Below, piece after piece: positions 6,014 through 22,793 of a DNA stretch of 22,793 bases (position 1 is its first letter; each line of letters begins with the position of its first letter). The notes under the pieces were generated by a model. That model was not told the origin of the DNA, ran no database searches, and saw only the letters and a list, made by a program, of their open reading frames with translations. The position numbers were made by a program, and so were the translations under genes. Origin of the DNA: a virus; the IMG/VR virus record IMGVR_UViG_3300005939_000057, positions 1 through 22,793 of that record; one strand, written 5' to 3'.

Positions 6014-8224
6014 CTACCGCCCTCCATCTTTTCCGGTTTCATTCAAAGCCTGCATGATGCCTTGCTTCACTTTCTTTTCGATGTCCTTGTCGGACGTGCC
6101 GGTAATATTCACCGTGACGGTGTAATGATTTGTGCGCCCGCCATCAGATTGCCGCGAATTATCGATGTTATTAATTGACCCGCCGCCCGCGCCAACCGGT
6201 ACCGGAATGAGTCTCATCAACGATTCATCCAACTCACGTTCCAATGAGGGAAACGATTGATGGATTCCACGCTGAAAAGTTTCGACGAATCTAAAACCGC
6301 TTTTCGTCAGGTCCGAAAGAGGGCCTTTTTTAGCGTCGCTGAAAGGCAAATAAGAGCGCAATTCGGAAAACATGTTTTTGACATTTGTTACCAGTCCAGA
6401 CCATGCCGCCTTGATCCCGTCCAGAAATGCGGCAATCAGACCCTTGCCCGCTTCATAGAATCGACTAGGCAGAGCGACAACCCATTGCCAAACCGCCGTA
6501 AAATGCCCCTTGATCGTCTCCCATACCCCACCGAAAGCCTCAGCAATTCCCGCCCAGGTGCTTGACCATAAACCGGAAATATAAGACAGCCCGATAGAGA
6601 AAACATTGGTAATGAAATCCATCCCGACAGCAATCCCCATGCCGAGACTCAAGACCATATCGCGTACAAACTCCCAAATCCATTTGAATCCGGCCCCAAG
6701 CATGCCCCACAGCTTCACAGCCGCCCCGCTGATCGCTTGGGATGCAATAAGGAAGGCCCCACAGATGGCCCTGAAAGCCGCTCCTAGCCCTGCTGTAATG
6801 GAATCCCAATGTTTCCAAAGCTGATAGCCGATGACGCTCAATCCGGCAATCGCCAAAATGACAAGACCGACAGGCCAGAGGATTGACCATATTCCAATAG
6901 CCACGCCCTTTAATGCCGCCGCCAATCCCAATGAACCCATCGCCGCGCTTTTGGAGGCAAGCGAATACGCAGCCAAACTGACCACCGCAAAGGCAAAGCT
7001 CGCAGCCAAAAACACAACCGTTCCGGCTAAAGTCAGAAAAATGCCGGTGACTAAAATGCTGGTGATCAATATTTTAGTTAGCATCGGATGCGCTTTGGCA
7101 AATGCCCCGATCCCTGAGCCGATCTTGCCGATGACAGTAAGCAGGCTCGTTATCGTCGGCAACATGGCCTTAAATATGTCGTGCATTGCCGCCGCCGCCG
7201 ATGCCTTACTTTTATCAAATGCGGCCTTCGTAGTCGCGTCCATCTTTGCAAATGCAGTAGCGGTGGAGCCTGTCTTAATCCCCATCGCTTCCATGATCTC
7301 AGCGTATTTCTGGCCTTGCGGCCCAACTAAAGCCAAGGCCCCAACCAAGGCCCGGACATTCGGGAATAATCTGGCAAGCGCAACTTCATTGCCGCCCATC
7401 TTCTCTTGCAAGATTTTCAACCAATTGGAAAAGCCGCCCACTGATTTTATTCCGGCAGTCGAAAGAGTAATCCCAAATTCTTTAGCCACCGCCGTCGCGT
7501 CGGCAGTGGGCTTCAAAATTCCGCTCATCATGGCGCGAAATGACGTGGTTGCCTCTGCTGTATTCAAACCGCCAAGGGTCAATGCAGCAACGCCTGCGGT
7601 CATTTCGTCAATTCCGACACCCGCCGCTTTGGCCAAAGGCGCAACGCGGCCAATGGTAGACGACAAAGCCCCGATGGTCGTTTTGCCCATCCTCATAGCA
7701 ACAAAAAGAGAATCAGAGACGCTAAGGGCGTCCTCGCCAGATAATCCATAAGCATTCAGAATTGAAGTCAATCCATCGACAGCCGTTGCAGTATCGGTCA
7801 CACCGCCACGCGCCAATTTCAACCCGACAGTCATTATTTCCGTGGCGTCGGCAGCATCGGAAAAGCCCGCCGAAACGGTCTGATAAAAAGCTCTTGCGGT
7901 ATCGGTCGGCATAGAACCGAATTCCTTGGACATGTCCTTGACTTGTTCGCCGAGCCCGCCAATGTCCACCGTTGCGGTATCGACTAAAGTTGAAACCTCA
8001 GCCATCGCATTTTCAAATCCAGCCGCCGAAACGATACCGGGCACCATGGCCGCCGTCATGACGCCGCCGATAAACATCATTTTCTTGCCGATGGCCTTTA
8101 ATTGACCAATGGCTTTTTTTAATTTATTCAGATCACCGATGGCATTCTTGACAGGCTTCCCCAAGGCATTCTTGCCGACGATCCCGACTTTGATGGAATG
8201 GAGAAACCTGCCAAAACCGAACAT
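6014..8224 (-). CDS. Tail tape measure protein
   Basis: This 736-aa protein is the longest in the window and follows the tail chaperone, as tape measures do. Residues of about 60-330 form the TP901-type core, with FENAMAEVSTLVDTA and repeated Ala/Gly-rich helices such as SLFVAMRMGKTTIGALSSTI. Strongly hydrophobic segments lie at about 383-420 and 434-467, followed by Trp-rich amphipathic helices. The C-terminal piece FSDAKKGPLSDLTKSGF is a common tape-measure tail motif. It fixes tail length and leaves through the tube at infection. At the usual ~1.5 angstrom per residue the tail would be near 110 nm. The SD is weak, so start at 8224 probably depends on coupling to the chaperone stop at 8226. 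Confidence 0.92.
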   Translation of the reverse strand: MFGFGRFLHSIKVGIVGKNALGKPVKNAIGDLNKLKKAIGQLKAIGKKMMFIGGVMTAAMVPGIVSAAGFENAMAEVSTLVDTATVDIGGLGEQVKDMSKEFGSMPTDTARAFYQTVSAGFSDAADATEIMTVGLKLARGGVTDTATAVDGLTSILNAYGLSGEDALSVSDSLFVAMRMGKTTIGALSSTIGRVAPLAKAAGVGIDEMTAGVAALTLGGLNTAEATTSFRAMMSGILKPTADATAVAKEFGITLSTAGIKSVGGFSNWLKILQEKMGGNEVALARLFPNVRALVGALALVGPQGQKYAEIMEAMGIKTGSTATAFAKMDATTKAAFDKSKASAAAAMHDIFKAMLPTITSLLTVIGKIGSGIGAFAKAHPMLTKILITSILVTGIFLTLAGTVVFLAASFAFAVVSLAAYSLASKSAAMGSLGLAAALKGVAIGIWSILWPVGLVILAIAGLSVIGYQLWKHWDSITAGLGAAFRAICGAFLIASQAISGAAVKLWGMLGAGFKWIWEFVRDMVLSLGMGIAVGMDFITNVFSIGLSYISGLWSSTWAGIAEAFGGVWETIKGHFTAVWQWVVALPSRFYEAGKGLIAAFLDGIKAAWSGLVTNVKNMFSELRSYLPFSDAKKGPLSDLTKSGFRFVETFQRGIHQSFPSLERELDESLMRLIPVPVGAGGGSINNIDNSRQSDGGRTNHYTVTVNITGTSDKDIEKKVKQGIMQALNETGKDGGR

Positions 8225-8225
8225 T

Positions 8226-8917
8226 TTATCTTTTGCCTTTTCTGCCCCTACCGGGCGTCGGGGCGTTCTCTTTTCCCTGTTTTCCTAACCACTCACTCCC
8301 GACTAAATGGTCCATGATTTCTTCAACCGTCATCGCATCAACGTCCCCATAAGTAAGGCCAGGGTGCATCTTCGTGATGATTGCCCTGGCCTCTCCAAAC
8401 CACCCAAGTTCCTGAAACCGCCGTCTTGCGGCGGTCAGTAATTTTTTATTTCGCCCTCGTCGCTATACCCGTTGAACCTGGATATCTGAGTCACCAAGGC
8501 CAGGATGTGACCACCGAGCAAATCCTTGGTTCCCTCTTTGAGTTCGCCCACGTTGTAGCGCGGGTAATCCAATGTCGATTGAACGAACGTGGCGACGCTC
8601 ACCGACATGTTCTTGGCCTTGGCGTCGGCCATTGCCTTTGACTGCCGCATGAAATCGGAAGGGCTCAGGGTGTGGGCCACAAAAATGAATTTGCACGTCG
8701 GAATGTAAATCACGCCGACCGCCTGCTTTGGTTCATGTTTCTTTTTGGCCGCGTCCAGGGCATCTTGAATCGCCCAATATTCCTTTTCGATTTCATCATC
8801 GGGAATGTTGAATTGTCTCAGGTGCTCTTCAACATCATTGAAAAGGTTCTCGTCTTTTTCCTGTTTGTCTTTCGGATCGCCCGCCGTGTTGGCTGAACCC
8901 GTACCTTGCTCACTCAC
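8226..8917 (-). CDS. Tail assembly chaperone, long form made by -1 frameshift (G-GT type)
   Basis: If ribosomes slip back one base at AAAAAAT (8447-8441), the first 159 residues of the short form continue into a 71-codon frame (8441-8229, stop TAA 8228-8226), giving about 230 aa. The added part begins LLTAARRRFQELGWFGEARA, has an acidic helix (YGDVDAMTVEEIMDHLVG) and ends basic (GRGRKGKR). It has no strong start of its own, is stop-free from the slip site to the tape-measure gene, and leaves one base between its stop and the tape-measure ATG. In lambda and many other phages a G/GT pair at this position guides tube assembly around the tape measure. The long form is inferred; the overlap and signal are seen. 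Confidence 0.82.
8418..8447 (-). promoter_or_regulatory. Programmed -1 ribosomal frameshift signal
   Basis: On the minus strand the heptamer A AAA AAT (8447-8441) lies in the X XXY YYZ register of the chaperone frame. It is followed by a six-base spacer TACTGA that contains the 0-frame stop. Then comes a perfect six-pair GC stem, CCGCCG (8434-8429) with CGGCGG (8423-8418), around the loop CAAGA. An A-U and a G-U pair can extend the stem into the spacer. Slippery site, spacer and stem all match the known design of phage tail frameshift sites. Confidence 0.85.
8435..8917 (-). CDS. Tail assembly chaperone, short form (G-like)
   Basis: This 160-aa protein starts at GTG 8917-8915, with AAGGGG six bases upstream. 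It is charged, with an acidic low-complexity N-terminus and a more ordered middle containing VGVIYIPTCKFIFVAHTLSP. It lies between the tube and tape-measure genes, the fixed place of the G-like chaperone. The 0-frame ends TAC TGA directly after a slippery run, so this is the non-shifted product. Function as a tape-measure chaperone is family knowledge applied by position, since such chaperones have low sequence conservation. Confidence 0.85.
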   Translation of the reverse strand: MSEQGTGSANTAGDPKDKQEKDENLFNDVEEHLRQFNIPDDEIEKEYWAIQDALDAAKKKHEPKQAVGVIYIPTCKFIFVAHTLSPSDFMRQSKAMADAKAKNMSVSVATFVQSTLDYPRYNVGELKEGTKDLLGGHILALVTQISRFNGYSDEGEIKNY

Positions 8918-8941: not shown

Positions 8942-9433
8942 TTAGAACAGGCCCTCGCCGCCTTTGGCAAAGCCTTCAACGCTGACACTTGATACCTCAC
9001 CAAGGGCTTTTTTGCCGCTGGCTTTGGTGAATTCGCAATCTGTCAGGCGGACAACTTTTTTGACGCCTTCAAAAGACGGATTGGAATTTGTGATTGTGAA
9101 GGGCGGCAAATCGCCCCAGGTTGTATAATCAACCCCGTTGATATTAAACGCGGCAATTTCCACCCCGTTGACGACTTTGGTGCCAAGCAGGCTGTCATTG
9201 ATGTCGTCTAGCGTCATGCTCCATGTGTATCGAATATCGCCACGCATGACGCGGAGATTTTTGGAGCCTTTATTTCGGCCCGGCCCGCCCCTGACTTCCT
9301 TGGGATAATCGGAGTCCCAATCGAAATTCTGCGCCGTGCAAAGCTCATACTCTTGCCCGGCGATCGTTACCGTAAGGGTGGTTTCTTCCAGTACGCTCGG
9401 GTCTTCCTCGGCCTTGTTGTCATATAGGGACAT
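8942..9433 (-). CDS. Tail tube protein
   Basis: This 163-aa protein directly follows the sheath gene and precedes the tail chaperone, which is the tube position in Mu/P2-like tails. The length fits tube proteins, which form stacked hexameric rings inside the sheath. Visible elements are an early strand pair (TLTVTIAGQEYEL), a flexible Gly/Arg-rich loop at about 48-60, and a run of strands to the C-terminus (VVRLTDCEFT, VSSVSVEGFAKGGEGLF), the simple beta-sandwich of the fold. The ATG at 9433 has GGAGG about eight bases upstream. Confidence 0.85.
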   Translation of the reverse strand: MSLYDNKAEEDPSVLEETTLTVTIAGQEYELCTAQNFDWDSDYPKEVRGGPGRNKGSKNLRVMRGDIRYTWSMTLDDINDSLLGTKVVNGVEIAAFNINGVDYTTWGDLPPFTITNSNPSFEGVKKVVRLTDCEFTKASGKKALGEVSSVSVEGFAKGGEGLF

Positions 9434-9447
9434 TGCGTCGCCCTCCC

Positions 9448-10914
9448 TTATGCGCTTTTGCGGTAAACGCGATGTGTGACGTTCTTCATCGTCACGGTAT
9501 ACAGGAACCTAAGATCGGCATAGGTATAGCCATCGGCGTCCACATTGACATTGATTGTGTAATCGGAAAACGCCTTGCCCTTGCGAAGATCAAGCGGAAC
9601 TTTCATCGCCGTAGCAAGTCCGACCTTGCCGTTTCCATCGGCGTCATCCCATCGGCCCCATTGTGGCAATCCGGCTGTTCGCGCTTCGCCGCCGCTAACG
9701 TAAGCGGTTCGCAAAATCTCACAGTCCTCAAAGTCGCTGCCATCAACAACTAAAGTCTTGGAGACGTTGACGATGACGTTCCGGCCTTTTTTCCAATGGA
9801 TGTAATTGACTCGGGCCGCCGCAAGCGTATTGCGGAATGACTTCGGGATTTCGGGTTGCAGGTCGGTCCTGTCGGCATCCGTCTTGATATTGATGAGACT
9901 CCGATTGATGGCATGCCCAAGCCAAATGCCCGCCGCGTAGGCTGCTACGTTGGCTTCGTATTCGGTGGTATCACCATCGTTGAAATCTTTTTGACCCGCG
10001 AAGGCGATAAGGTTTTTATCATCCTCACTTGCCAAGGCGGTTTGAATCGATGTGGTCCAAGTGTTGATATCGACCAGCCAAGCCGCCGATTTCGGAGTAT
10101 TGGCGCTTTCAAAATCTTCCATTTCCAGGAAGAAAAAGCGCTCTTGGTCGTGATCGGCCAGACTGGAAGCCGCATGCGTCCCGAGCAATGCCCGTAAGGC
10201 CGAGCTTGCATCTTCCCCGCTGCCTTTCGCGCCCAAAATCAGCACGGCCATATGCTCGGTGCCTTCCAGCAACGTCAAGACGCGGCTGATTTCGGCGTTC
10301 GTGATTGACCCCGATAGCCCACCGGTAAACAGCGTCCAGGCAATTTCCAGCAGTTCTTTTTCAGTATTGGCCGTGGCGGTCAATTGCAGACTGGAAGCAT
10401 TGATCGCATTCGCCAAAAGGGTATTGGTATTTGTGGCTGCCAAGCTCGCGGTGAATTGCGAACTCGTTCCCGTGGATGTGCGCTTGATCGTGACGGTCAT
10501 TTCATTTTCAACGAGGTCTTTTTCGGTCATGATGTACCACTCGTTGCCGTCCGTTCCGCAGTAATCATATTCGACCGTGAGCCCCGTTACGGCTGTCGAA
10601 TCCTTTTCCTTCAAGGTCGCACTTGCCTTCGCCCCTGATGCACCGATCCGCATTGTATTGACGGTGATCAGTTCATCCCTTTCAGGATCATTCAGGTTGC
10701 CGGAAATTGCTTCACGGCAAGCACGGGGCAAGCGTCCATCGACCCCATACAGGGTCTCACACAGGCCGACGCCATTCAGGCCCGCCCACGGATAAATGGT
10801 GTCCATCTCGCCGTCATTCGCCAGACCGACAAGCAGCAATGAAAACTCATCGCTCCCGTCAATCGGGGAACTGTACTCATCTTTGTATTCAGTTTTCATA
10901 TTGGGTTCAGGCAT
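9448..10914 (-). CDS. Contractile tail sheath protein (Mu gpL-like)
   Basis: This 488-aa protein has the length and order of a Mu gpL-type sheath. The N-terminal arm leads into a domain ending in a conserved-looking stretch, AAYAAGIWLGHAINRSLINIK, that resembles the sheath motif before the C-terminal domain. The last part includes RVNYIHWKKGRNVIVN, GRWDDADGNGKVG and a final strand-rich end MKNVTHRVYRKSA that would interlock neighbouring subunits. It is followed by the tube gene. This gene identifies the particle as contractile. The ATG at 10914 has GGAGG six bases upstream and lies just beyond the previous stop. Confidence 0.88.
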   Translation of the reverse strand: MPEPNMKTEYKDEYSSPIDGSDEFSLLLVGLANDGEMDTIYPWAGLNGVGLCETLYGVDGRLPRACREAISGNLNDPERDELITVNTMRIGASGAKASATLKEKDSTAVTGLTVEYDYCGTDGNEWYIMTEKDLVENEMTVTIKRTSTGTSSQFTASLAATNTNTLLANAINASSLQLTATANTEKELLEIAWTLFTGGLSGSITNAEISRVLTLLEGTEHMAVLILGAKGSGEDASSALRALLGTHAASSLADHDQERFFFLEMEDFESANTPKSAAWLVDINTWTTSIQTALASEDDKNLIAFAGQKDFNDGDTTEYEANVAAYAAGIWLGHAINRSLINIKTDADRTDLQPEIPKSFRNTLAAARVNYIHWKKGRNVIVNVSKTLVVDGSDFEDCEILRTAYVSGGEARTAGLPQWGRWDDADGNGKVGLATAMKVPLDLRKGKAFSDYTINVNVDADGYTYADLRFLYTVTMKNVTHRVYRKSA

Positions 10915-13620: not shown

Positions 13621-14511
13621 TCAGGTGATGGTGATCCCGGCGATTCTGTTTGCATGACCGATGCCCATACGGGTGGTCATATACAGATTGATTTCCACTT
13701 CCAGCCGGTCCTTGGAATAATTTTCCTTCTCGCCCAATCGCTGAAGCTTGAATTCATCCACGCGGACACCGGGTTTTTTGTCACAGATCAACAGGATTTG
13801 TCCGGCCGTCGCCTGCGAGCAATAAGCCAAATTGGCCCCGCCGATTTCGATGGACTGGACGCCCTTGGTTTGCATGGACGTCTTGACCGCATTTCCGGCG
13901 CTGGCGTCGGATACAATGTCTGCAAAGTCGGAGGCCCGCCCAAAGAAGAGTTTGACGGTCTGGTCAAGGTCTTCCAAAATTGCGACGGCGGCGCTCATGG
14001 CCGCGACAGTCAGCGTGGTTGCAACACTGACCTTGTTGGCGGCAGGACACGCCGCACTCACAAGGCCGATTGCGTAAATGTTCAGCAGCTTGAAAATGGC
14101 TTCCTCTGCGACATTGACTTGCTCTTCCAGTGGGCCAATTTGGCCACGCTGCAAGTCCAGGATGTTGACGCGAGGGGCGCATGTCACCAGCTTGATCGGC
14201 AGGGTGGACATTGAGGGCGTATCCATGCTGGATTTGAACTGCCCGCTTTCATCCAGCCAATGGGCGGTATGCTCCGGGTCCGTTGCCAATTTCACCGTTC
14301 CCACCATGGGACTTTTCACATTAAGCAAAAGCGGCGTAACGTCCTTTTGCAGGATGTCGGCTTCCATGAAAAGCACCAATTCAGCCGCGATCGCAGCAAG
14401 CCCCTTATTGGTGTTGTTCACATGAGCCTTGCGGTATGTGTCGTAGAGATGACTGGCGAGCGCGTTCATCACCTCAGATCGCTTCACTCTCGGTCCGATA
14501 TCGGTAGGCAT
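13621..14511 (-). CDS. Major capsid protein (HK97-fold, compact)
   Basis: This 296-aa protein occupies the major capsid position after protease, scaffold and decoration. The ATG at 14511 has AAGGAG seven bases upstream, one of the strongest sites here, as expected for an abundant product. The helix YDTYRKAHVNNTNKGLAA near the N-terminus, a central alpha/Ala-rich stretch (SVATTLTVAAMSAAVAILED) resembling the spine helix and A-domain, and a final strand-rich part (RVDEFKLQRLG... LEVEINLYMTTRMGIG) fit a small HK97-type fold. The C-terminal part resembles major capsids in which yMr.r.g..h.. precedes the last strand. I see no cleavage site that can be named with confidence. Confidence 0.85.
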   Translation of the reverse strand: MPTDIGPRVKRSEVMNALASHLYDTYRKAHVNNTNKGLAAIAAELVLFMEADILQKDVTPLLLNVKSPMVGTVKLATDPEHTAHWLDESGQFKSSMDTPSMSTLPIKLVTCAPRVNILDLQRGQIGPLEEQVNVAEEAIFKLLNIYAIGLVSAACPAANKVSVATTLTVAAMSAAVAILEDLDQTVKLFFGRASDFADIVSDASAGNAVKTSMQTKGVQSIEIGGANLAYCSQATAGQILLICDKKPGVRVDEFKLQRLGEKENYSKDRLEVEINLYMTTRMGIGHANRIAGITIT

Positions 14512-14530
14512 GACGTTTCTCCTTTCATCC

Positions 14531-14899
14531 CTAGAAATAAATCTTGATGTCGTATCCGCTTTCAGCGGAAATCACGATACCGAGGGCAACCGCACCGCCG
14601 CCCGCAGCATATTTAGTAAAGAATCCGCTGGAATGACCCATCACCTTGTCGCCAGCAACGAGCGTTACGGCGACTTCGGTGGTGTCCAGATGGATCAACG
14701 CGCCATAGCCCCAAACGACAGTGGCTAAAGCTTCTTTATCGGGGTCTGCCAGAAGGATACCGGCCGGCATTTCCGTTGCGACCGTAAGCGGCTCGAAAGT
14801 GTCATCATCGGCCACTTTCATAAGCTGGCCCGATGTCGAATCAGAATCTACGGTGCCGGTTCCGTGCTGTACGGTTTGGCCCGGATAATAGATTTTCAT
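14531..14899 (-). CDS. Capsid decoration / head fibre-like protein
   Basis: This 122-aa beta-rich protein lies between scaffold and major capsid, where Mu- and lambda-like clusters carry a decoration protein. It starts MKIYYPGQTVQHGTGT; its middle (LMKVADDDTFEPLTVATEMPAG and VAVTLVAGDKVMGHSSGFF) is the short-strand-plus-Gly pattern of small capsid-cementing proteins such as those with DUF2190/gpD-like folds. The ATG overlaps the scaffold TGA (ATGA) and has GGAGG seven bases upstream. It probably stabilises the expanded capsid. Naming a family more exactly would need a search. Confidence 0.78.
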   Translation of the reverse strand: MKIYYPGQTVQHGTGTVDSDSTSGQLMKVADDDTFEPLTVATEMPAGILLADPDKEALATVVWGYGALIHLDTTEVAVTLVAGDKVMGHSSGFFTKYAAGGGAVALGIVISAESGYDIKIYF

Positions 14900-15435
14900 T
14901 GGTCGTCCTCCTCACACTGATTGATGAAAGCTCGGACCTTTTTTGCGTCGTCACTCAGATCACTATTTTTGCCGCCGTCGCCCATACTTTTGGGCTTCGG
15001 AATATCCAAAAACCTGTTGGCCGTGGATGTCTGCTTGCCCTTGTCGTCAACGGGGTCGGCTTCCGGTTCGGCATCGGCTTCCGGGGTGGGTTCCGCTTCG
15101 GCCTTGACGGGGATTTCTTCAACTTCCGCCTTGATTTCCGCCAAGGCTTCATCGGTTTTCCCCATCAATTTTCCGGCGTAGGCTTTGCGGGTTTTTTCAT
15201 CGTAGATAACGCCCCGCGCCTCCTTCGCGACGATGATCGATTCCACCAGCGCCTCTTTTTCCTTGCCCTGGTATTCGGCCAAGTCGTCGGTCAATTTCTT
15301 GTTGGTCTTGGCGAGCTCGGTGTTTTCCGCTTTGAGCGCTTCATTTTCCGCTTTGAGAATTTCCAGATCGGAGGCTTTTGCAGCTACGTTCTCAGCCCCC
15401 TTGTCCGGCGTCTTCCCTTCATCTTTTGGGTCCAT
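14896..15435 (-). CDS. Nested in-frame short scaffold (internal start), predicted
   Basis: Within the scaffold gene, in frame, ATG 15435-15433 (residue 227 of the long form, MDPKDEGKTPDKG) is preceded by a full GGAGG (15445-15441) with a five-base spacer. The start falls exactly at the boundary between the folded N-terminal domain and the coiled-coil scaffold half. The product would be 179 aa of acidic coiled coil. Phages of the lambda C/Nu3 kind make scaffold in this way from an internal start. Seen: the SD and ATG. Inferred: its use. Confidence 0.65.
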   Translation of the reverse strand: MDPKDEGKTPDKGAENVAAKASDLEILKAENEALKAENTELAKTNKKLTDDLAEYQGKEKEALVESIIVAKEARGVIYDEKTRKAYAGKLMGKTDEALAEIKAEVEEIPVKAEAEPTPEADAEPEADPVDDKGKQTSTANRFLDIPKPKSMGDGGKNSDLSDDAKKVRAFINQCEEDDQ

Positions 15436-16113
15436 TTCAGCCTCCGGTTCTTTGTTATTTTTGGTAAGCCGCGCTGCCGCAGCCTGGATAATCATGGCGT
15501 CTTCATCCGCACCCGGATTTTCCATGCAGGACCATCCGAATGGGGTTACGTTCGTCATTAGAATTGCGGCCTTGCCCCGCGAAGTCACCGCGTAGCTGCC
15601 GTCATGCAATTGTTTTTTGACGAGGTGTTCGCAGATGTCATTCACGTCAGTAAACGACTTGCCGCAAATAGAGCATTTCCCCTCCGAATAATTGATCTCC
15701 CATGATCCGTATTCGAATTGCCTATTCTTTATGATGTTCCAGCCGTGTTTTGAGACATCATTGGTGTCGTAAACTTCGGCCTTGAACAGAATGGCTTCCT
15801 TGCCCTTCAGGTCTTTGCCTTTCCACATTTCCAGCATGCGCCCGATAATCTCTTCAGCGCTGCCTAATGGGTGCTCATCCCCTGCCTTTTTCGGGGTGGT
15901 TTTTTTCATCCGAATGGCGAGATATTTACCGGAGTTTTTCTGGCGATAGAATCCGGCAATCATTTTATCGGCTTCATGATCGTCCAATTGGTTGCCGTTC
16001 AAGTTCGTGCCGATATGCCCATAAACTCCCGTAAATTGCTGGCCTTCCAAGACCTCTAAAACGGTATGTTTGGCGTTATTTGCCGTGGCGCGTAAAAGTG
16101 AATTCGACATCAC
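14896..16113 (-). CDS. Scaffold protein with N-terminal zinc-knuckle/prohead-protease-like domain
   Basis: This 405-aa protein has two halves. Residues 10-205 form a folded domain with GSWEINYSEG, then CSIC (147-150), CEH (161-163) and a late strand FGWSC. That matches the pattern of large S78/XkdF-type prohead-protease domains, in which a serine-containing strand is followed by a CxxC...CxH knuckle. Residues 249-300 form a Lys/Glu coiled coil (LEILKAENEALKAENTELAK), followed by acidic Pro/Glu repeats and a charged C-terminal helix, all typical of phage scaffolds. A separate protease lies directly upstream, so whether the N-terminal domain is active is open. The start is GTG 16113 (seven bases after GGAGG) or ATG 16110. 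Confidence 0.8.
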   Translation of the reverse strand: MMSNSLLRATANNAKHTVLEVLEGQQFTGVYGHIGTNLNGNQLDDHEADKMIAGFYRQKNSGKYLAIRMKKTTPKKAGDEHPLGSAEEIIGRMLEMWKGKDLKGKEAILFKAEVYDTNDVSKHGWNIIKNRQFEYGSWEINYSEGKCSICGKSFTDVNDICEHLVKKQLHDGSYAVTSRGKAAILMTNVTPFGWSCMENPGADEDAMIIQAAAARLTKNNKEPEAEMDPKDEGKTPDKGAENVAAKASDLEILKAENEALKAENTELAKTNKKLTDDLAEYQGKEKEALVESIIVAKEARGVIYDEKTRKAYAGKLMGKTDEALAEIKAEVEEIPVKAEAEPTPEADAEPEADPVDDKGKQTSTANRFLDIPKPKSMGDGGKNSDLSDDAKKVRAFINQCEEDDQ

Positions 16114-16898
16114 GAAATTACCTCCTCGGTTTTCTCTGGCGCTTCCGCCGTTTCCGCTATCGGGGCAATTTCCATGAGGTTGGTGACGATCTTATCGGCT
16201 AGGTGATAGTCAATCGCCTCCAATTCATTGAAGTAAAAATCGCGCTTTCCTTCGGGGTCCAATAGCATTTTATTGGCGAGCGTGGCTTGGTCCATCCCAA
16301 GGTTTTTTGCCAAAATGGAAAGCAATATTTCATTCAGCCGTTCCGCTTCTTCCAAATCGGCCTTGGCGTCTCTGAGGTGGCCCCATGCAATCGTCGATAC
16401 CTCGTGTATCATGACGGTTGAATTGGGGATAAGGAGGCGCTTGCCCTTGGTTCCGCATGAAAACAGGACCGCGCCCGCCGACATTGCCGCGCCGAAACAG
16501 ACGGTGCGAAAATCAACGCCCGCAACTTCCATAACGCCGATCATCGGGAACAACCCATAAATGGAGCCGCCGTAAGAGGCGATGCAAATTGTAATATCCT
16601 GCTCGGCATCCTCTCGAAGCAGATCGTAAATTTGGCTTGCAAAATCCTGAGCGCCATAAAGGCTGAAATCCGTCACCCAAACCGTGCGGGGAAATCCCCT
16701 TTGCGGTTGCTGGATAACGATGGAAGGCGTCGGATCAACTTCGTTCTGACTTCCCATATTGACGGAAAATTGCAAATTGGTTGAAATGGATTGGACTCGC
16801 GGGGGTTGAGCCATTACCGGTCTGCCGTCTTCATTTGCTACCGGCTCGACTTTTGCCTTTTCCGCTGCCGCCTCTTGATTTTCATTCTTTTTTTCCAT
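16110..16898 (-). CDS. ClpP-like prohead maturation protease
   Basis: This 262-aa serine protease belongs to the ClpP/S14-like fold used by many phages to cleave scaffold and capsid. Residues of about 98-112 carry the oxyanion strand with ASYGGS; the nucleophile is Ser140 in FGAAMSAGAV; His165 lies in NSTVMIHEVS; and Asp220 lies in GKRDFYFNELEAIDYHLADKI, the same order and spacing as the ClpP triad. The first 55 residues are a disordered charged tail that a cellular ClpP does not have. The ATG at 16898 has GGGAG six bases upstream and its stop overlaps the scaffold start. It is preceded by a 126-base gap with a leader related to that of the portal gene. Confidence 0.88.
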   Translation of the reverse strand: MEKKNENQEAAAEKAKVEPVANEDGRPVMAQPPRVQSISTNLQFSVNMGSQNEVDPTPSIVIQQPQRGFPRTVWVTDFSLYGAQDFASQIYDLLREDAEQDITICIASYGGSIYGLFPMIGVMEVAGVDFRTVCFGAAMSAGAVLFSCGTKGKRLLIPNSTVMIHEVSTIAWGHLRDAKADLEEAERLNEILLSILAKNLGMDQATLANKMLLDPEGKRDFYFNELEAIDYHLADKIVTNLMEIAPIAETAEAPEKTEEVIS

Positions 16899-17024
16899 GC
16901 GCTTCTCCCGGTTACGAAAAAAGCGTATGCACAGATTATTTTTTTTTCGGGATTGGTACGGTTTTTCAGAAAAGTATATTTATCCGCTACATGGACCACT
17001 TATTGTAGAATTTACTTTAGGTAT
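16899..17024 (-). promoter_or_regulatory. Leader of the protease gene with 22-bp repeat copy 1 and weak hairpin
   Basis: This gap between the head morphogenesis stop and the protease start holds a copy of a 22-bp sequence (16950-16971) also found upstream of portal. On the coding strand it is followed by an inverted repeat CGAAAAAA (16949-16942) with TTTTTTCG (16922-16915) around a 19-base loop, and then AACCGGGAG before ATG. The region is AT-rich unlike its neighbours. A transcription or translation control role is inferred. I see no clear -35/-10 pair. Confidence 0.5.
16950..16971 (-). repeat. 22-bp direct repeat, copy 1
   Basis: TTCTGAAAAACCGTACCAAT plus CC on the minus strand. It matches copy 2 at 19621-19642 at 20 of 22 positions and is in the same orientation. 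It lies 51 bases upstream of the protease start codon. Confidence 0.85.
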
Positions 17025-18077
17025 TTAAGCAGCTTCTAAAAAGGCTTCCGGCGTCATGTCAATCGAACTGGCCTCCGGGATAATCGTGCAACAGCATCCA
17101 GGGTGGGCGGGCAATCCAGGCAGGTCTTTTATTTTGTAGGTTACACCGTGACGGGGTAAGCAGATTCCGCAAACATTATCTTTTTCACTGGTCAGCCACG
17201 TTACTTCCCGCACTCCAATCTTTTCATGGAATGCCAGCTTCCCCATATTGTGGACGCGGTTATTTTCCGTGGCCGCTATCAATTGCATTCGATTTGCAGC
17301 GCTTGGAAAAACACGGCCGCCCGCATGCCTGAATTTCTCTGGGTCAATCGGGACGTGGCCTAGCTTCCGGACCGTTTCATAAAGTGGATCGCCGGAGATC
17401 ATGGACGTTGCGAGAGTGCCTTTTATTTTTTGCTTGATCTCATTCGCCACGTCTCCGGCAAGCTCTAATCTGTAGGCTGATAAAAACTGCAACCCTTCGG
17501 TGCTGATAATGCCTCTGGCATTGGTTGCTAATTCGCCGACTTGTTTCTTTGTCAGATCGCCCCATCCACCGGGGGCCTTCTGGTCAACCACATCCTGGAC
17601 GCCCCAAAAGAGGCCGTTATCAATTGCCGCCTTGGTCTGCGCCTCAACCAGTTTAGCCTGGCGGGCAAATGCCTGATCGATGGATTTATCAATATCTTTT
17701 TGCAGGCCGGCCATGCCCCTTTTGCGTTTCGCCGGAGTGTTGAATTTCGGATTGTGATCAAAATCCTTAATCGTCTTGCCGATTTCCTCGCGGGCCGTCG
17801 CCATTTCCCGCTGCATGTCCATGACCTGCTTGCGGGTGAGCGCATCAACTTCCTTGCTGGCCTGCTCGGTGGATTTTCGGATTCGTTCGGATAGATCGGC
17901 CGCGACAGATAAAAGCGGCATCATGCCGAATTGTGGTTGATCTTTCAGGGCCGCATTGGCTGCCGGGTGTGCATGCCCGCAAGTGCCGGACCAATCTTGT
18001 GAATACCATGCAAGCAGGGTGGTGAAGGCCGCAAATTTGGCCGGAGCCATTCCACGGCGAAAAGCCAGCCGGGGCAC
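17025..18077 (-). CDS. Head morphogenesis protein (Mu F / SPP1 gp7-like)
   Basis: This 350-aa protein belongs to the phage head morphogenesis family that acts beside the portal in the prohead. The diagnostic C-terminal part is TWLTSEKDNVCGICLPRHG, with C303 and C306, followed by PAHPGCCC (H325, C328). This is the VCp.C...G...HP.CrC pattern of Mu gpF-like domains, likely a metal-binding site. The middle is long coiled helices (about 60-220). Start is GTG 18077, one base before the end of the portal stop, with AAGG eight bases upstream. An ATG at codon 10 has no SD. Its order after portal is standard. Confidence 0.85.
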   Translation of the reverse strand: MPRLAFRRGMAPAKFAAFTTLLAWYSQDWSGTCGHAHPAANAALKDQPQFGMMPLLSVAADLSERIRKSTEQASKEVDALTRKQVMDMQREMATAREEIGKTIKDFDHNPKFNTPAKRKRGMAGLQKDIDKSIDQAFARQAKLVEAQTKAAIDNGLFWGVQDVVDQKAPGGWGDLTKKQVGELATNARGIISTEGLQFLSAYRLELAGDVANEIKQKIKGTLATSMISGDPLYETVRKLGHVPIDPEKFRHAGGRVFPSAANRMQLIAATENNRVHNMGKLAFHEKIGVREVTWLTSEKDNVCGICLPRHGVTYKIKDLPGLPAHPGCCCTIIPEASSIDMTPEAFLEAA

Positions 18078-19565
18078 TTACTTGACCTTTTTGGGTGGTT
18101 TTTTCTTCGTGGCTGTTTTCTTGTCGGCTTCCATTTTACTTTGCAGGGCCAGCATTTTATGGGCGACGGAATTGAAATTTTTCTCTTCTGATTTCTTGGT
18201 CAACGCCGCCGCTACTGATTCCAATTCCTCTTCTGAAATTCCCAACACCGCCGCCGCTACCTTGGGGGTGAACACTTGCGCCTGGACCAACGCGGCCATT
18301 TCACCGGGTGTCATATAATTGCGAATTCGCAACATCTCGGCGGCCAATCGGGCTTCTTCTTGATCGGGATCAACGCCACGTCGTTCCAGGTAAGTGCGCC
18401 TTGAGATAAGCGCCCGGTCAACCGCTTCCCGATCTTCCCGGACTTCCCATTCTTCATCATCGACCCGCAAGCCCGTGAAGAAATACCCAATTTTTACGTC
18501 TTCGGCGATCCCAATTGCTTTTCTAACTTCGGGATCATTGAAAAACCAGATCATCAAGGATTTGATTTTTTGGGCCAATCGTTTGATCTGGAAAGTTTTC
18601 GCCTTGAAAACAATGCGGGCCGTGCTGAAATTCGGCCCCTCGCCGGTAATGAATATCGGCTCCAAGTCATGCGCCATCGCAATTTGATTTGTCTGTAAAA
18701 CAATTCGTTCGGTTGTATTGAGAATGTCGCCCTCGACGCCCTTTTGCACGATTTCAACGAAAGGATCGGTCACGAGGGCTTGCCGCTGATCCATGGTGTT
18801 CAAGGTCGTTTGCATTTTTTGGAGGTCGGCGGCTTTCGGGATAAACACTTTATTGCCGACAGCCCCGCCAAGCTTGACCAACCGGATCACATTGACAAAT
18901 CGTTTTGCAATGGAGTTTTCAGCTTTTCGCAAATTCAACAGAATCGGAATCTTGTCGAGCGCCGCCGTGGTCAAGCCATCGGCCCTTTTGTTTACGCCAT
19001 CTTCTTCTTGGTATTCCAATCGCAGATAACGCCAAGCGTCTAAAGTTTCACCTTCCCATGTTCCATCCTGGGCAACCACCTTGCGGTCCTCGGTCGTGTA
19101 CTGTTCGAGTTTGACAAGCTTTCCAGCTTCATAGGTGATCTTGAGCGACAAGGGATTTATCGCCCTCAATCGTATCGTGCCATCGTCTTCACGGTGCTTG
19201 AAAACTCCGACTTCGCCCTTGACGATTAGGAGCACAAGCACCTGCCAGAGCGATTCGTACATGCCAACTTTTTGCTCGTACTCTTCAATTTTTTCGCGCT
19301 CTTCTTCTTTTTTCGTGAGGTATTTGATGCCGTCGCCAAGAACGAAAGTACACCAGCAATGGACCGGCTTCTTGACCGCATCGACTTGCATGTAATACAG
19401 CCAGCACAGCTTTGCCCGATCATCCCATTCTTTCGGAACCGGGTCTTCATCTTTTGTGCCGGTATAATCGCTAATCCGCGCAGCAACGGCTTGAACGCCA
19501 CTCGCTACACTTTCGAATGAAATGTTGACTGCGCTGAGGAGTCTATCGGCAATTTTATTCGGCAT
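18078..19565 (-). CDS. Portal protein
   Basis: This 495-aa protein would form the dodecameric channel at the capsid vertex through which terminase drives DNA. Its place directly upstream of the head morphogenesis gene is normal. Features include an N-terminal part with AKLCWLYYMQVDAVKKPVHC, a beta-rich centre (TIRLRAINPLSLKITYEAGKL), a helix NSIAKRFVNVIRLVKLGG, and a long C-terminal helical region with KTFQIKRLAQKIKSLMIWFF, then GLRVDDEEWEVREDREAVDRA. The last 40 residues are very Lys-rich (KKPPKKVK). The ATG at 19565 has GGAAGG upstream, but that SD sits inside a hairpin. Confidence 0.83.
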   Translation of the reverse strand: MPNKIADRLLSAVNISFESVASGVQAVAARISDYTGTKDEDPVPKEWDDRAKLCWLYYMQVDAVKKPVHCWCTFVLGDGIKYLTKKEEEREKIEEYEQKVGMYESLWQVLVLLIVKGEVGVFKHREDDGTIRLRAINPLSLKITYEAGKLVKLEQYTTEDRKVVAQDGTWEGETLDAWRYLRLEYQEEDGVNKRADGLTTAALDKIPILLNLRKAENSIAKRFVNVIRLVKLGGAVGNKVFIPKAADLQKMQTTLNTMDQRQALVTDPFVEIVQKGVEGDILNTTERIVLQTNQIAMAHDLEPIFITGEGPNFSTARIVFKAKTFQIKRLAQKIKSLMIWFFNDPEVRKAIGIAEDVKIGYFFTGLRVDDEEWEVREDREAVDRALISRRTYLERRGVDPDQEEARLAAEMLRIRNYMTPGEMAALVQAQVFTPKVAAAVLGISEEELESVAAALTKKSEEKNFNSVAHKMLALQSKMEADKKTATKKKPPKKVK

Positions 19566-19570
19566 CGCGC

Positions 19571-19597
19571 CCTTCCGGTTTTTTTCAACCGGGAAGG
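19571..19597 (-). promoter_or_regulatory. Hairpin covering the portal ribosome-binding site
   Basis: On the coding strand CCTTCCCGGTT (19597-19587) can pair with AACCGGAAGG (19580-19571) around a six-base A-rich loop, giving ten pairs with one bulge. The 3' arm contains the portal SD, with the ATG five to six bases beyond, so folding would hide the ribosome-binding site. No U-tract follows, so a terminator is unlikely. Confidence 0.55.
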
Positions 19598-19620
19598 TAC
19601 GAACGAATTTAGAACTTTAT

Positions 19621-19642
19621 GGATTGGTATGGGTTTTCAGAA
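19621..19642 (-). repeat. 22-bp direct repeat, copy 2
   Basis: TTCTGAAAACCCATACCAAT plus CC on the minus strand, directly after the recombinase stop codon (19649-19647) and 55 bases before the portal start. It has 20 of 22 identical positions with copy 1 at 16950-16971. It could be a control element or, because it borders the integrase gene, part of an attachment site. Confidence 0.8.
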
Positions 19643-19646
19643 TTGC

Positions 19647-20489
19647 TTAGATTTGATCCACCGCCGCTTGCATATCGCCATCGTTGCAATGCGTGTAGAT
19701 TTGGGTTGTGACTATGCTCGAATGCCCCAAGAGTTCCTGTGTTAGCCTCATATTTTTGGTAGAGGATAGAAGTAGGGTCGCAAAGGTATGGCGCAAGGAG
19801 TGCGGGGAGATTTCTTTTATCCCGGCCTTTTTACACCACACCTTGAGCCGATTTCTGATTTGCTCGGTGGTGATATGCCCCTTGCCAAATCGTCCCGTGA
19901 AGAAATAGCCGTTGTCCCGATGGACCTTTTCCCGATCCTCAAGCCATTGGCCCAACACACGGGAGACCGTTGCGGATAAAACCTTGACCTGCTCCTTCCC
20001 GCCTTTCGCCTGAATGATTATGTGCCGAGCATCGATCCAGTCGGCAATTTTCAAAGTGGCAACCTCAGCCACTCGCAACCCGGCCCCGACCATCATTTGA
20101 ATAATTGCCAAATCGCGCATGGCGTTTTTATCATCGCTATCCGTGATGGAATAAATCAGCGTATCCCGTTCCTGCTCTGACAGGTATTGACGTGGCGCAT
20201 GATTCACCCGTCTGGTTTTGAGCAATCGCGCCGGATCAATGGAAACAAGGGCCGTCGCCTCTGCCCATTTGAAAAAGGATTTCACCGCCGAGACGCACCG
20301 ATAAATGGAAGCATCCGAAAGGTTACTCCCGCGCAATCCCAAAACGAATTGATCCAAATCGCCCGGCGTGGCTTCCATCGGATCAACGAATTCGGCCAAC
20401 CGCACAAGGTCTCGACCATATGCCGAAAGGGTATGGGGGCTGTGACCATTGGCGGTAAGGTGGTTGAGAAAATTATTGATTGAAGTCAT
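19647..20489 (-). CDS. Tyrosine recombinase / phage integrase (XerC/D-like)
   Basis: This 280-aa enzyme has the complete set of catalytic residues: Arg139 in VGAGLRVAEV, Lys162 in the AKGGKEQ beta-hairpin, His230 and Arg233 in SPHSLRHTFA, His256 in LLGHSSIVTT and Tyr265 in IYTH. The SAM-like N-terminal domain (1-95) has the usual NFLNHLTANGHSPHTLSAYG start. The length is that of Xer-type recombinases, shorter than most lambda-type integrases, and no arm-binding domain is seen. It starts three bases after the 70-aa gene and precedes portal with an 81-base gap. It would integrate and excise the phage, resolve dimers, or act on the nearby repeats; which one is open. Confidence 0.9.
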   Translation of the reverse strand: MTSINNFLNHLTANGHSPHTLSAYGRDLVRLAEFVDPMEATPGDLDQFVLGLRGSNLSDASIYRCVSAVKSFFKWAEATALVSIDPARLLKTRRVNHAPRQYLSEQERDTLIYSITDSDDKNAMRDLAIIQMMVGAGLRVAEVATLKIADWIDARHIIIQAKGGKEQVKVLSATVSRVLGQWLEDREKVHRDNGYFFTGRFGKGHITTEQIRNRLKVWCKKAGIKEISPHSLRHTFATLLLSSTKNMRLTQELLGHSSIVTTQIYTHCNDGDMQAAVDQI

Positions 20490-20492
20490 TTG

Positions 20493-20705
20493 CTAATTTT
20501 CCCCATAGAATAATTTGCAGCCTTCGCCGTTACGCCAAAGGCGGGCAGCAATTTTGATGTGTATTTTACGACCTGTTCTTTCGTTTACAGCATCCCATTC
20601 GATCCGGCCCCGTTCCCCTTTCACATCGGTAATTATTACTTTGCAGACATGCCCGCTTATCAAGGTGTAATATTTCTCGCCAATTTCGACGCTCTCTTTA
20701 TTCAT
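20493..20705 (-). CDS. Small 70-aa beta-rich protein, unknown
   Basis: I use ATG 20705, with GGAG about ten bases upstream and an 8-nt overlap with the helix-turn-helix gene, although the frame is open to 20744. The product begins MNKESVEIGEKYYTLISGHV and is made of short strands with a pattern of the kind vGekY...isGhv.kV.I......Grie...v.eRTGRkihIk.aarL. It resembles small SH3-like phage or bacterial proteins with a G-x-x-Y start and a TGR-x-(I/V)-x-I end. No function is assigned. It is followed by the recombinase with a three-base gap. Confidence 0.7.
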   Translation of the reverse strand: MNKESVEIGEKYYTLISGHVCKVIITDVKGERGRIEWDAVNERTGRKIHIKIAARLWRNGEGCKLFYGEN

Positions 20706-21051
20706 TTTTTTTGTTCTCCCGTTCGTATCGGATAACTTCAGCAATTGGAACGAAGCGCATTCGGCCCCTTCGATATGCCGCCAATTTCCCGTATTGGTTT
20801 ATCATTGCGGCCAATGTGGACCGCGCAATTCCAGTCCTTTCAACCACCTTTGAAACAGTCAAATTCGGGAGCGAAAGGATTGTGTCCTCGTCGGCTTTCT
20901 GAAAATCCTTCAATTTTATTCTTACCGGATCGCCCAGGCCCCTCCCGCCTTTGGTTATTTCGCAGGCCATGATTTCATTTTTGCCGACCTTGTACTTGAC
21001 CTGCGAGGGTAAATATAGCGCCTTGGATTTCTTGTGTTGGTAGATCATCAT
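20698..21051 (-). CDS. Helix-turn-helix DNA-binding protein (excisionase/regulator-like)
   Basis: This 117-aa protein has a helix-turn-helix at about 64-86 in the segment LTVSKVVERTGIARSTLAAM, followed by a short wing-like GRMRFVPIAEVIRYE, a MerR/excisionase-like arrangement. The N-terminal 55 residues are a separate beta-rich part (ALYLPSQVKYKVGKNEIMA). ATG 21051 has GGAG seven bases upstream. Two genes from the recombinase, it could be the excisionase (directionality factor) or the regulator of the promoter at 21585-21613. Neither is shown by the sequence. Confidence 0.75.
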   Translation of the reverse strand: MMIYQHKKSKALYLPSQVKYKVGKNEIMACEITKGGRGLGDPVRIKLKDFQKADEDTILSLPNLTVSKVVERTGIARSTLAAMINQYGKLAAYRRGRMRFVPIAEVIRYERENKKNE

Positions 21052-21099
21052 CGCTGTTCTCCTTGTTGATGCCTGTCAGTTGTGTGCAGGCTGGCATAA

Positions 21100-21340
21100 T
21101 TACGCCCCTTCGGTAATCTCACACAGTTTCTTGAAGTGTTGGTTGGCGGCATACGCCAGCGCTTCATGGCCGGACATTCCCGCTTTTTTCTTGATCGCGT
21201 AATAGGAATATGCGCGGCTGCACAAAGCTTTTTCGCATATCGAGGTTCCAGAGCCGTCTTTCAATTTCAAGTACGCCCCCCAACCCTTCAAAGTCGTTTA
21301 CGTTGGCATCTTTCAGCATTTCAGCGATGTATTCGTTCAT
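21100..21340 (-). pseudogene. Small ORF broken by a single-base frame change in a G6 run
   Basis: A frame with a good start (ATG 21340-21338, AAGGA seven bases upstream) encodes MNEYIAEMLKDANVNDFEGLG. It then reaches GGGGGG (21281-21276) and, if read straight, continues into an atypical stretch that stops at 21164. The +1 frame from the G-run onward has no start of its own except TTG (21291), yet carries a better-looking protein: AYLKLKDGSGTS, ICEKALCSRAYSYYAIKKKAG, HEALAYAANQHFKKLC, with a stop at 21102-21100. Joining the two gives 79 aa. This fits one extra G (mutation or sequencing error). A -1 slip would meet a stop at once, so ordinary -1 recoding does not explain it. The function is unknown. 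Confidence 0.6.
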
Positions 21341-21352
21341 GGCTTTATCCTT

Positions 21353-21538
21353 TCAGGTTCTGAATGGGTCGTTAAGTAGGGCCTTGCAATGGAAGCAATG
21401 TAATTGGCGCAATTCTAATTCCTTCTTCCGTTCGTCCACCGACTGGCTCACCAGTAGAGACAGCGGGAGCGCGAACTTCGTCTCTTTGCCACAACGCGGG
21501 CAAGCGTAACTGGCTTCATCGATCGGCTTGTCATTCAT
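21353..21538 (-). CDS. Small zinc-ribbon protein (two CxxC)
   Basis: This 61-aa protein has CPRC (C13, C16) and CFHC (C48, C51), a zinc-ribbon arrangement with a 31-residue spacer rich in charged helix residues. I use ATG 21538 because it has GGAG eight bases upstream; the longer open frame to 21613 runs across the promoter and is excluded. It is the first gene after the leftward promoter. Such small ribbons occur in phage early regions as DNA- or polymerase-binding factors, but no specific role can be named. Confidence 0.75.
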   Translation of the reverse strand: MNDKPIDEASYACPRCGKETKFALPLSLLVSQSVDERKKELELRQLHCFHCKALLNDPFRT

Positions 21539-21578
21539 TTCCGTTTCTCCTGTTTGCTTTGTTTGTCCGTTTCTCATG

Positions 21579-21613
21579 TTTACAACTATAGTCGTTAGCG
21601 GTATGGTTGTCAA
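21579..21613. promoter_or_regulatory. Inverted repeat spanning the promoter, possible operator
   Basis: TTTACAAC (21579-21586) and GTTGTCAA (21606-21613) are inverted copies with one mismatch and 19 bases between them. They cover the -10 and -35 boxes of the leftward promoter, where a repressor dimer would block it. The arms overlap functional promoter bases, so a fortuitous match is possible. Confidence 0.45.
21585..21613 (-). promoter_or_regulatory. Strong sigma70-like promoter for the leftward operon
   Basis: On the minus strand a perfect TTGACA (-35, 21613-21608), a 17-base spacer and TATAGT (-10, 21590-21585, five of six consensus bases) match the consensus almost fully. Transcription would begin near 21578 and enter the zinc-ribbon gene, whose ATG is at 21538. 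It is the only near-consensus promoter I see in the window. Confidence 0.8.
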
Positions 21614-21761
21614 GTAAAAAATGAAAAAATAATAAAAAAATAAAACCGTGTGTTTTTAGATAGTTAGCTTGCCTATGGCCGTTCCCTGTAAAAAAGCCGT
21701 CGTTTTTTCTGAAAAAATAAGCCACTAGCATGGCATCCGCTCCCGCTCCTATGGTTCCCGC
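21607..21761 (+). promoter_or_regulatory. Intergenic control region of the terminase, with a weak rightward promoter
   Basis: A possible rightward promoter has TTGTCA at 21607-21612 and TAATAA at 21630-21635 with a 17-base spacer. Its -35 box overlaps that of the leftward promoter, so the two would be back to back. The rest of the stretch is AT-rich with A- and T-runs and has no clear terminator or small gene. The terminase start has no good SD. A match of 10 bases to the leader repeat (21707-21716) is too short to rely on. Confidence 0.35.
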
Positions 21762-22793
21762 ATGGCAATCCAAGGACCGATGGAAAGACTAATCAAGGGA
21801 CTCCCCCCGGAGCATGTCGCATACTTTGAAGAGTGCAGGGAAAACCCGTGGAAATGGGGCGAACTCGTTATTGCGAACCGGGAGACCGGGGAAAACTACA
21901 AATATTGGCCCCATCAAAAAGAGGATTTGGAATGCAAGGCTAAAATGATTGTCCACCAGGACGCCGCCGATGTAGGAAAAACCACCGCCCTCATAACCGA
22001 CATAATCCATTTTCTCTGCTGGACTGAAAACCTTCTCGGATTATGCATCGCTCCGATCTCGGCTCACTATCGGCCAATCATTGATGAAATTAAATGGCAG
22101 ATCGACCAAAGCCCCCTGCTGCAAGAAATGTTCAAGATAAAAGGTGAATCACCATATTTTTGGGTCCAGTTCAAAGGCGGCTCAAGGGTAGATTTCAGAC
22201 CGGCCGGTATCGATGGCGATGCGTTCAAGGCTCAACACGTCCACAAAATCTGGATCGACGAAGCGGCCCGAATTTCAAAACGAGCCTGGCATGTCATGCT
22301 CGAACGCCTTGTTAAAACCTACAAGAAAGCCCAAATCCGGGCGTACTGCTATCCAGACGGACGCCGCGATACTGAATACTACAAAGCTACTCAGGATACA
22401 GACTGGAAAGTATTTAAGGTTCCACAATCAGCCCGCCCTGATTGGGATGCCGAAAAGGAACGGGAAGCCCGGAAAAAGCACGGCGATCCGACCACGCCCG
22501 AATATCAACACATGGTTATGGGTGAACATGGAAGGCCGTGCGATTCCGCTTTCAATCAAAACAACTTTGCGGCCTGTCAACATAATATTCCAGGCTACAA
22601 GGTCCGCAAAATCGAGCAAAGCGCTTTTCACAACTTGGCGGATGAAAAGGCAATAAACGAGCGGATCAATTTTCTTTTCAGCACCCTGCCGTTGCCGAAA
22701 CCTGGATACCGCTGGTTGGGGCTTGACCCTGCCTACACCGCCGATCCATGTGAGTATGTCATTTGGTCCGAAGATGACCGGGGCCATATGACA
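21762..22793 (+). CDS. Terminase large subunit (partial, runs off right edge)
   Basis: 344 codons are open to the last base. The ATPase has a Walker A variant DAADVGKTT (67-75; catalytic-type Lys73) and Walker B KIWIDEAAR (162-170) with a following helix RISKRAWHVM. The nuclease domain begins at LGLDPAYT, in which Asp322 would be the first metal-binding residue; the other acidic residues are beyond the edge. The classical G-x-x-x at the start of Walker A is replaced by DAAD, as in some phage terminases with an xxDVGKT loop. It packages DNA through the portal. The start is ATG 21762 or ATG 21780; AAGGA (21772-21776) lies only three bases before 21780, and neither is well supported. It is on the opposite strand from all other genes. 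Confidence 0.85.
   Translation, partial: MAIQGPMERLIKGLPPEHVAYFEECRENPWKWGELVIANRETGENYKYWPHQKEDLECKAKMIVHQDAADVGKTTALITDIIHFLCWTENLLGLCIAPISAHYRPIIDEIKWQIDQSPLLQEMFKIKGESPYFWVQFKGGSRVDFRPAGIDGDAFKAQHVHKIWIDEAARISKRAWHVMLERLVKTYKKAQIRAYCYPDGRRDTEYYKATQDTDWKVFKVPQSARPDWDAEKEREARKKHGDPTTPEYQHMVMGEHGRPCDSAFNQNNFAACQHNIPGYKVRKIEQSAFHNLADEKAINERINFLFSTLPLPKPGYRWLGLDPAYTADPCEYVIWSEDDRGHMT

Follow-up and report, generated by a model that had tools for sequence, protein, structure and literature searches.

In phage lambda, the gene lying between the major tail protein and the tape measure yields a short product, G, and a minority product, GT, extended by a -1 shift of the reading frame. The molar ratio of the two proteins is about 30:1 and both leave the tail (PMC5009743). 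In the two HK97-like chaperone fs-genes that were tested, frameshifting amounted to 6% and 7% (PMC3711429).

The sequence examined here is the IMG/VR virus record IMGVR_UViG_3300005939_000057, and "the window" designates the whole 22.8-kb stretch analysed (22,793 nt). Its structural genes lie on the minus strand, as does every part of the slip signal described below. They include a contractile tail module in the order sheath, probable tube, 160-aa ORF and tape measure. The PBSX/skin-type contractile tail module of Bacillus subtilis shows the same gene order, and the sheath family of the window, phrog_279, also matches in B. subtilis. As in lambda, the 160-aa ORF lies directly upstream of the tape measure gene and downstream of the tube gene, the latter being assigned by position only; profile searches, PHROGs included, gave no family match for the tube ORF. 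The features of the locus are as follows.

9448..10914, minus strand: tail sheath protein, 488 aa (phrog_279, E 4e-18)
8942..9433, minus strand: probable tail tube protein, 163 aa (from its position between sheath and chaperone)
8435..8917, minus strand: predicted tail-assembly chaperone read in the 0-frame (G-like), 160 aa, from GTG to TGA (open frame, placed after the probable tube and before the tape measure)
8441..8447, minus strand: slippery heptamer A AAA AAT, in register (sequence and codon phase)
8435..8440, minus strand: spacer TACTGA, which includes the 0-frame stop TGA at 8437-8435 (sequence)
8418..8434, minus strand: putative stimulatory hairpin CCGCCG-CAAGA-CGGCGG (folding; the fold extends outward within the 30-nt segment)
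8226..8441, minus strand: predicted -1 frame extension (T-like), 71 sense codons and TAA (open frame, codon score)
6014..8224, minus strand: tape measure protein, 736 aa (TIGR01760, E 1.8e-37; PF10145; phrog_991)

Anatomy of the slip signal

The 160-aa ORF starts at the GTG at 8917, with AAGGGG 6 bases 5' of it, and its 3' end reads ATA-AAA-AAT-TAC-TGA. The heptamer A AAA AAT (8447-8441) is thus in codon phase and is followed by a single sense codon and the stop. The 6-nt spacer separates it from a perfect CCGCCG/CGGCGG stem closed by a loop of 5 nt (8434-8418). The 30-nt segment after the heptamer has a folding energy of -15.1 kcal/mol (z -3.84) and none of 200 shuffled versions was as stable. 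A structure of this sort is frequent at G/GT-type chaperone sites without being obligatory. Both the spacing and the stability of the hairpin satisfy the empirical rule of PMC4066793, which places the start of the hairpin at 4-10 nt and asks for at least 7.6 kcal/mol. The -1 frame, read from TTA at 8441, comprises 71 sense codons before TAA (8228-8226), and the predicted fusion product has 230 aa. From the TGA to the tape-measure ATG at 8224 there are exactly 210 nt. A preliminary description of this DNA had reported the in-register heptamer with the 0-frame ending one codon later, the GC stem six bases further on, the 71 open codons leading to a 230-aa fusion and the interval of 210 bases, all of which were found again. 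It had also placed the -1 stop two bases before the tape-measure ATG; a single base (8225) lies between them.

The last upstream stop of the -1 frame is TAG at 8465-8463, and therefore the slip must fall in the short overlap that precedes the TGA. This overlap of the two frames, from that TAG to the TGA at 8437-8435, has a length of about 9 codons, and no XXXYYYZ motif other than the heptamer was found in it. Of the 6095 codon positions of the structural genes, 23 (0.38%) carry an in-register X XXY YYZ motif, so that a chance motif in the overlap has a probability of a few percent. No second perfect stem made of six GC pairs and closed by 3-8 nt occurs in the 18.9 kb of the structural cluster. 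Only 0.12% of the 30-mers of the cluster are as stable as the signal segment, or about 0.4% of sites if a displacement of +-3 nt is allowed. In an iid sequence, a stretch of 71 codons would be open with P 0.03. Chance is a poor explanation of the signal. The hairpin was also considered as a transcription terminator. This was rejected: the minus strand has no terminator-like site, the hairpin is followed by just three U and the tape measure gene lies downstream.

The codon-usage score of the -1 frame is 4.7, between the 95th percentiles of the shifted frames (2.4 and 2.8) and the 5th percentile of the true frames (7.5), so that coding potential backs the extension only moderately; this intermediate value was counted against the frameshift reading. 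It would also suit a downstream frame that is untranslated, or one that constitutes a separate small gene of about 47 codons starting at the in-frame ATG at 8369, the hairpin then being incidental. However, this ATG is the first possible start of the frame, whose initial 24 codons contain no ATG, GTG or TTG, and it is not preceded by a well-spaced Shine-Dalgarno sequence. Moreover, the frame crosses the slip site uninterrupted: its last upstream stop lies at 8465, and it ends a single base short of the tape measure. We regard a separate or untranslated frame as exceedingly improbable.

A sequencing or assembly indel in the A6 run could likewise have split what is really one continuous frame of 230 aa. 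Indeed, the change of frame falls at a homopolymer and the slip site is covered by one assembly only. An independent assembly, IMGVR_UViG_3300025698_000928 (L002), which corresponds to positions 14052-22793 and so ends short of the slip site, agrees with the window at all but one of 8742 nt, without gaps. Two assemblies thus represent one phage population, and their agreement argues against an indel, as do the many A/T runs of at least six that occur within intact genes. An indel would, in addition, leave unexplained both the unique GC stem 6 nt downstream and the change of frame at the same gene position in unrelated phages (see below). It is a very unlikely explanation, though marginally less so than the separate gene.

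The run of A just before the change of frame could also promote slippage of the RNA polymerase, which would yield the same fusion as a ribosomal shift. Transcriptional realignment, however, has been tied to longer runs (An, n > 7; PMC3711429), and six A residues in a phased heptamer, together with a spaced hairpin, are a better fit to ribosomal slippage. The transcriptional alternative appears as improbable as the separate gene.

Loci with homologous tape measures

An alignment query with the tape measure returned 80 viral loci, from which duplicates were then removed. A locus was retained when a gene was overlapped by a -1 frame ending near the tape-measure start, according to criteria set by the analyst. 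Under these criteria, on which the counts depend, and with the reservation that related loci are not independent, 44 non-redundant loci (window included) display a -1 overlap, and an in-register heptamer lies within the overlap in 39 of them, that is in 38 besides the window. These loci come from IMG/VR contigs and from Dinoroseobacter, Vibrio and Bacillus phages (L003-L085) and share with the window a homologous tape measure, the -1 overlap and the phased heptamer. Heptamers are found at 34 of the 660 positions making up the final 15 codons and at 25 of 5613 elsewhere in the gene, an enrichment of about 12-fold. The gene order and the anatomy of slip site, spacer, stem and open frame, along with the likeness of the other tape-measure-sharing loci, bear out the earlier suggestion that the parts match the G/GT system.

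The commonest heptamers among these loci are AAAAAAC and GGGAAAC (12 each), whereas AAAAAAT occurs in the window only. The preliminary description had singled out both the heptamer and the stop codon in the spacer as worth recording. The former is indeed a mild oddity. The latter is ordinary, because the 0-frame stop lies 0-3 nt past the heptamer in 18 of the 38 relatives. Stops at this distance are seen in many unrelated chaperone groups of the L003-L085 set, with AAAAAAC and GGGAAAC strongly preferred, and the nearness of the stop to the heptamer may itself matter for the slip rate.

BLAST divides the chaperones of these loci into about 15 mutually unrelated groups. The window protein resembles none of them (best phmmer E 0.08; hhalign probability about 1% or less), and a phrog_279 sheath, present in the window, was found in none of the 50 tape-measure-sharing records scanned. 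The slip arrangement is thus general at the gene position upstream of the tape measure, but these comparisons give no sign that the window protein is homologous to those chaperones. By the analyst's criteria, ten further loci (L008, L014, L020, L021, L022, L031, L036, L065, L077 and L080) have an overlap of the +1 type and lack an in-register heptamer; they possibly represent other types of shift or separate genes.

Proposed mechanism and the heptamer

The analysis shows the anatomy of the signal, how unlikely it is to arise by chance, and that phages with related tape measures are arranged alike; we infer the occurrence of frameshifting, its rate and the roles of the products. The tail-assembly chaperone gene very probably undergoes programmed -1 ribosomal frameshifting of the lambda G/GT type. 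According to this model, most ribosomes starting at 8917 would stop at the TGA (8437-8435) and release the 160-aa G-like protein. The GC hairpin would pause a minority of them while tRNA-Lys occupies AAA and tRNA-Asn occupies AAT. The two tRNAs could then move back by one base and pair with AAA AAA, and the ribosomes carried past the TGA in this way would add 71 residues, yielding a GT-like protein of 230 aa. If the analogy with lambda holds, both products, present at a fixed ratio, would cover the tape measure, recruit the tube subunits and later leave the tail.

AAC and AAU codons are read by the same tRNA-Asn. A AAA AAG ranks among the best heptamers in E. coli, and A AAA AAC is described as a low-efficiency heptamer there, yet one used by bacterial IS elements (PMC4066793). 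By analogy with A AAA AAC, and given the shared tRNA-Asn, low efficiency in E. coli would be predicted for A AAA AAU as well; this was counted against the frameshift reading. The preliminary description had likewise rated AAAAAAT below AAAAAAG in E. coli, which the analogy with AAC upholds, with limited force for a phage whose host may differ. In the literature searched, neither a measured value for A AAA AAU nor an instance of AAAAAAT as the slip site of a tail chaperone turned up, and GeneTack lists AAA_AAA_T solely in another phase.

The locus thus resembles lambda G/GT in its position and in its predicted pair of a short and a minority extended product. Unlike lambda, the window phage has a contractile tail, the heptamer is A AAA AAT and a short, strong hairpin stands 6 nt away. 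In another departure from lambda, the chaperone is without a sequence match: neither the 0-frame nor the -1 product gave a significant profile match in Pfam, PHROG or NCBIfam. As no Pfam model matched, the XkdN-type model did not match either, a difference from the PBSX/skin-type module. There is about an even chance that the window represents an undescribed family of contractile-tail chaperones, using A AAA AAU in a bacterial host and relying on the short, strong hairpin to set the product ratio.

Many tailed phages have a frameshift of this kind; new in this case are only the precise slip sequence and a protein family that was not recognised. The heptamer is unusual but not surprising; it contributes a slip site ending in U to a collection in which AAAAAAC and GGGAAAC prevail. 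For annotation, the gain is one frameshifted chaperone in place of a gene and a gap, in a poorly matched phage. The understanding of tail assembly is unchanged.

Relatives of the window phage

No relative of the chaperone was found among viral contigs or phage records, which was counted against the frameshift reading. Single-protein queries of the viral contigs with the tube, sheath and tape measure returned no relatives, nor did the genome contigs scanned. The same holds for tblastn against phages with the chaperone, tube, sheath and portal, where the sheath, searched at E 10, gave noise. The exact DNA pattern of the slip signal and a DNA search of the plasmid collection gave no match. The portal and capsid queries retrieved one near-identical contig only, which does not reach the slip site, and a close relative covering the slip locus was not found among the collections searched. 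Single-sequence structure models were poor (mean pLDDT 58 for the 0-frame product and 71.5 for the extension) and the viral and PDB fold searches run with them gave no significant match, so that structure is neutral, neither for nor against the chaperone reading.

At the portal position (18078-19565, minus strand), a 495-aa protein had no match in phage tblastn or PHROGs, which suggests that the phage is distant from described ones. Beyond this portal-like gene, at 19647-20489 (minus strand), lies a gene for a XerC/XerD-like tyrosine recombinase (TIGR02224, E 2.9e-58, under the curated cut-off of the model). This recombinase is possibly an integrase, in which case the phage may be temperate.
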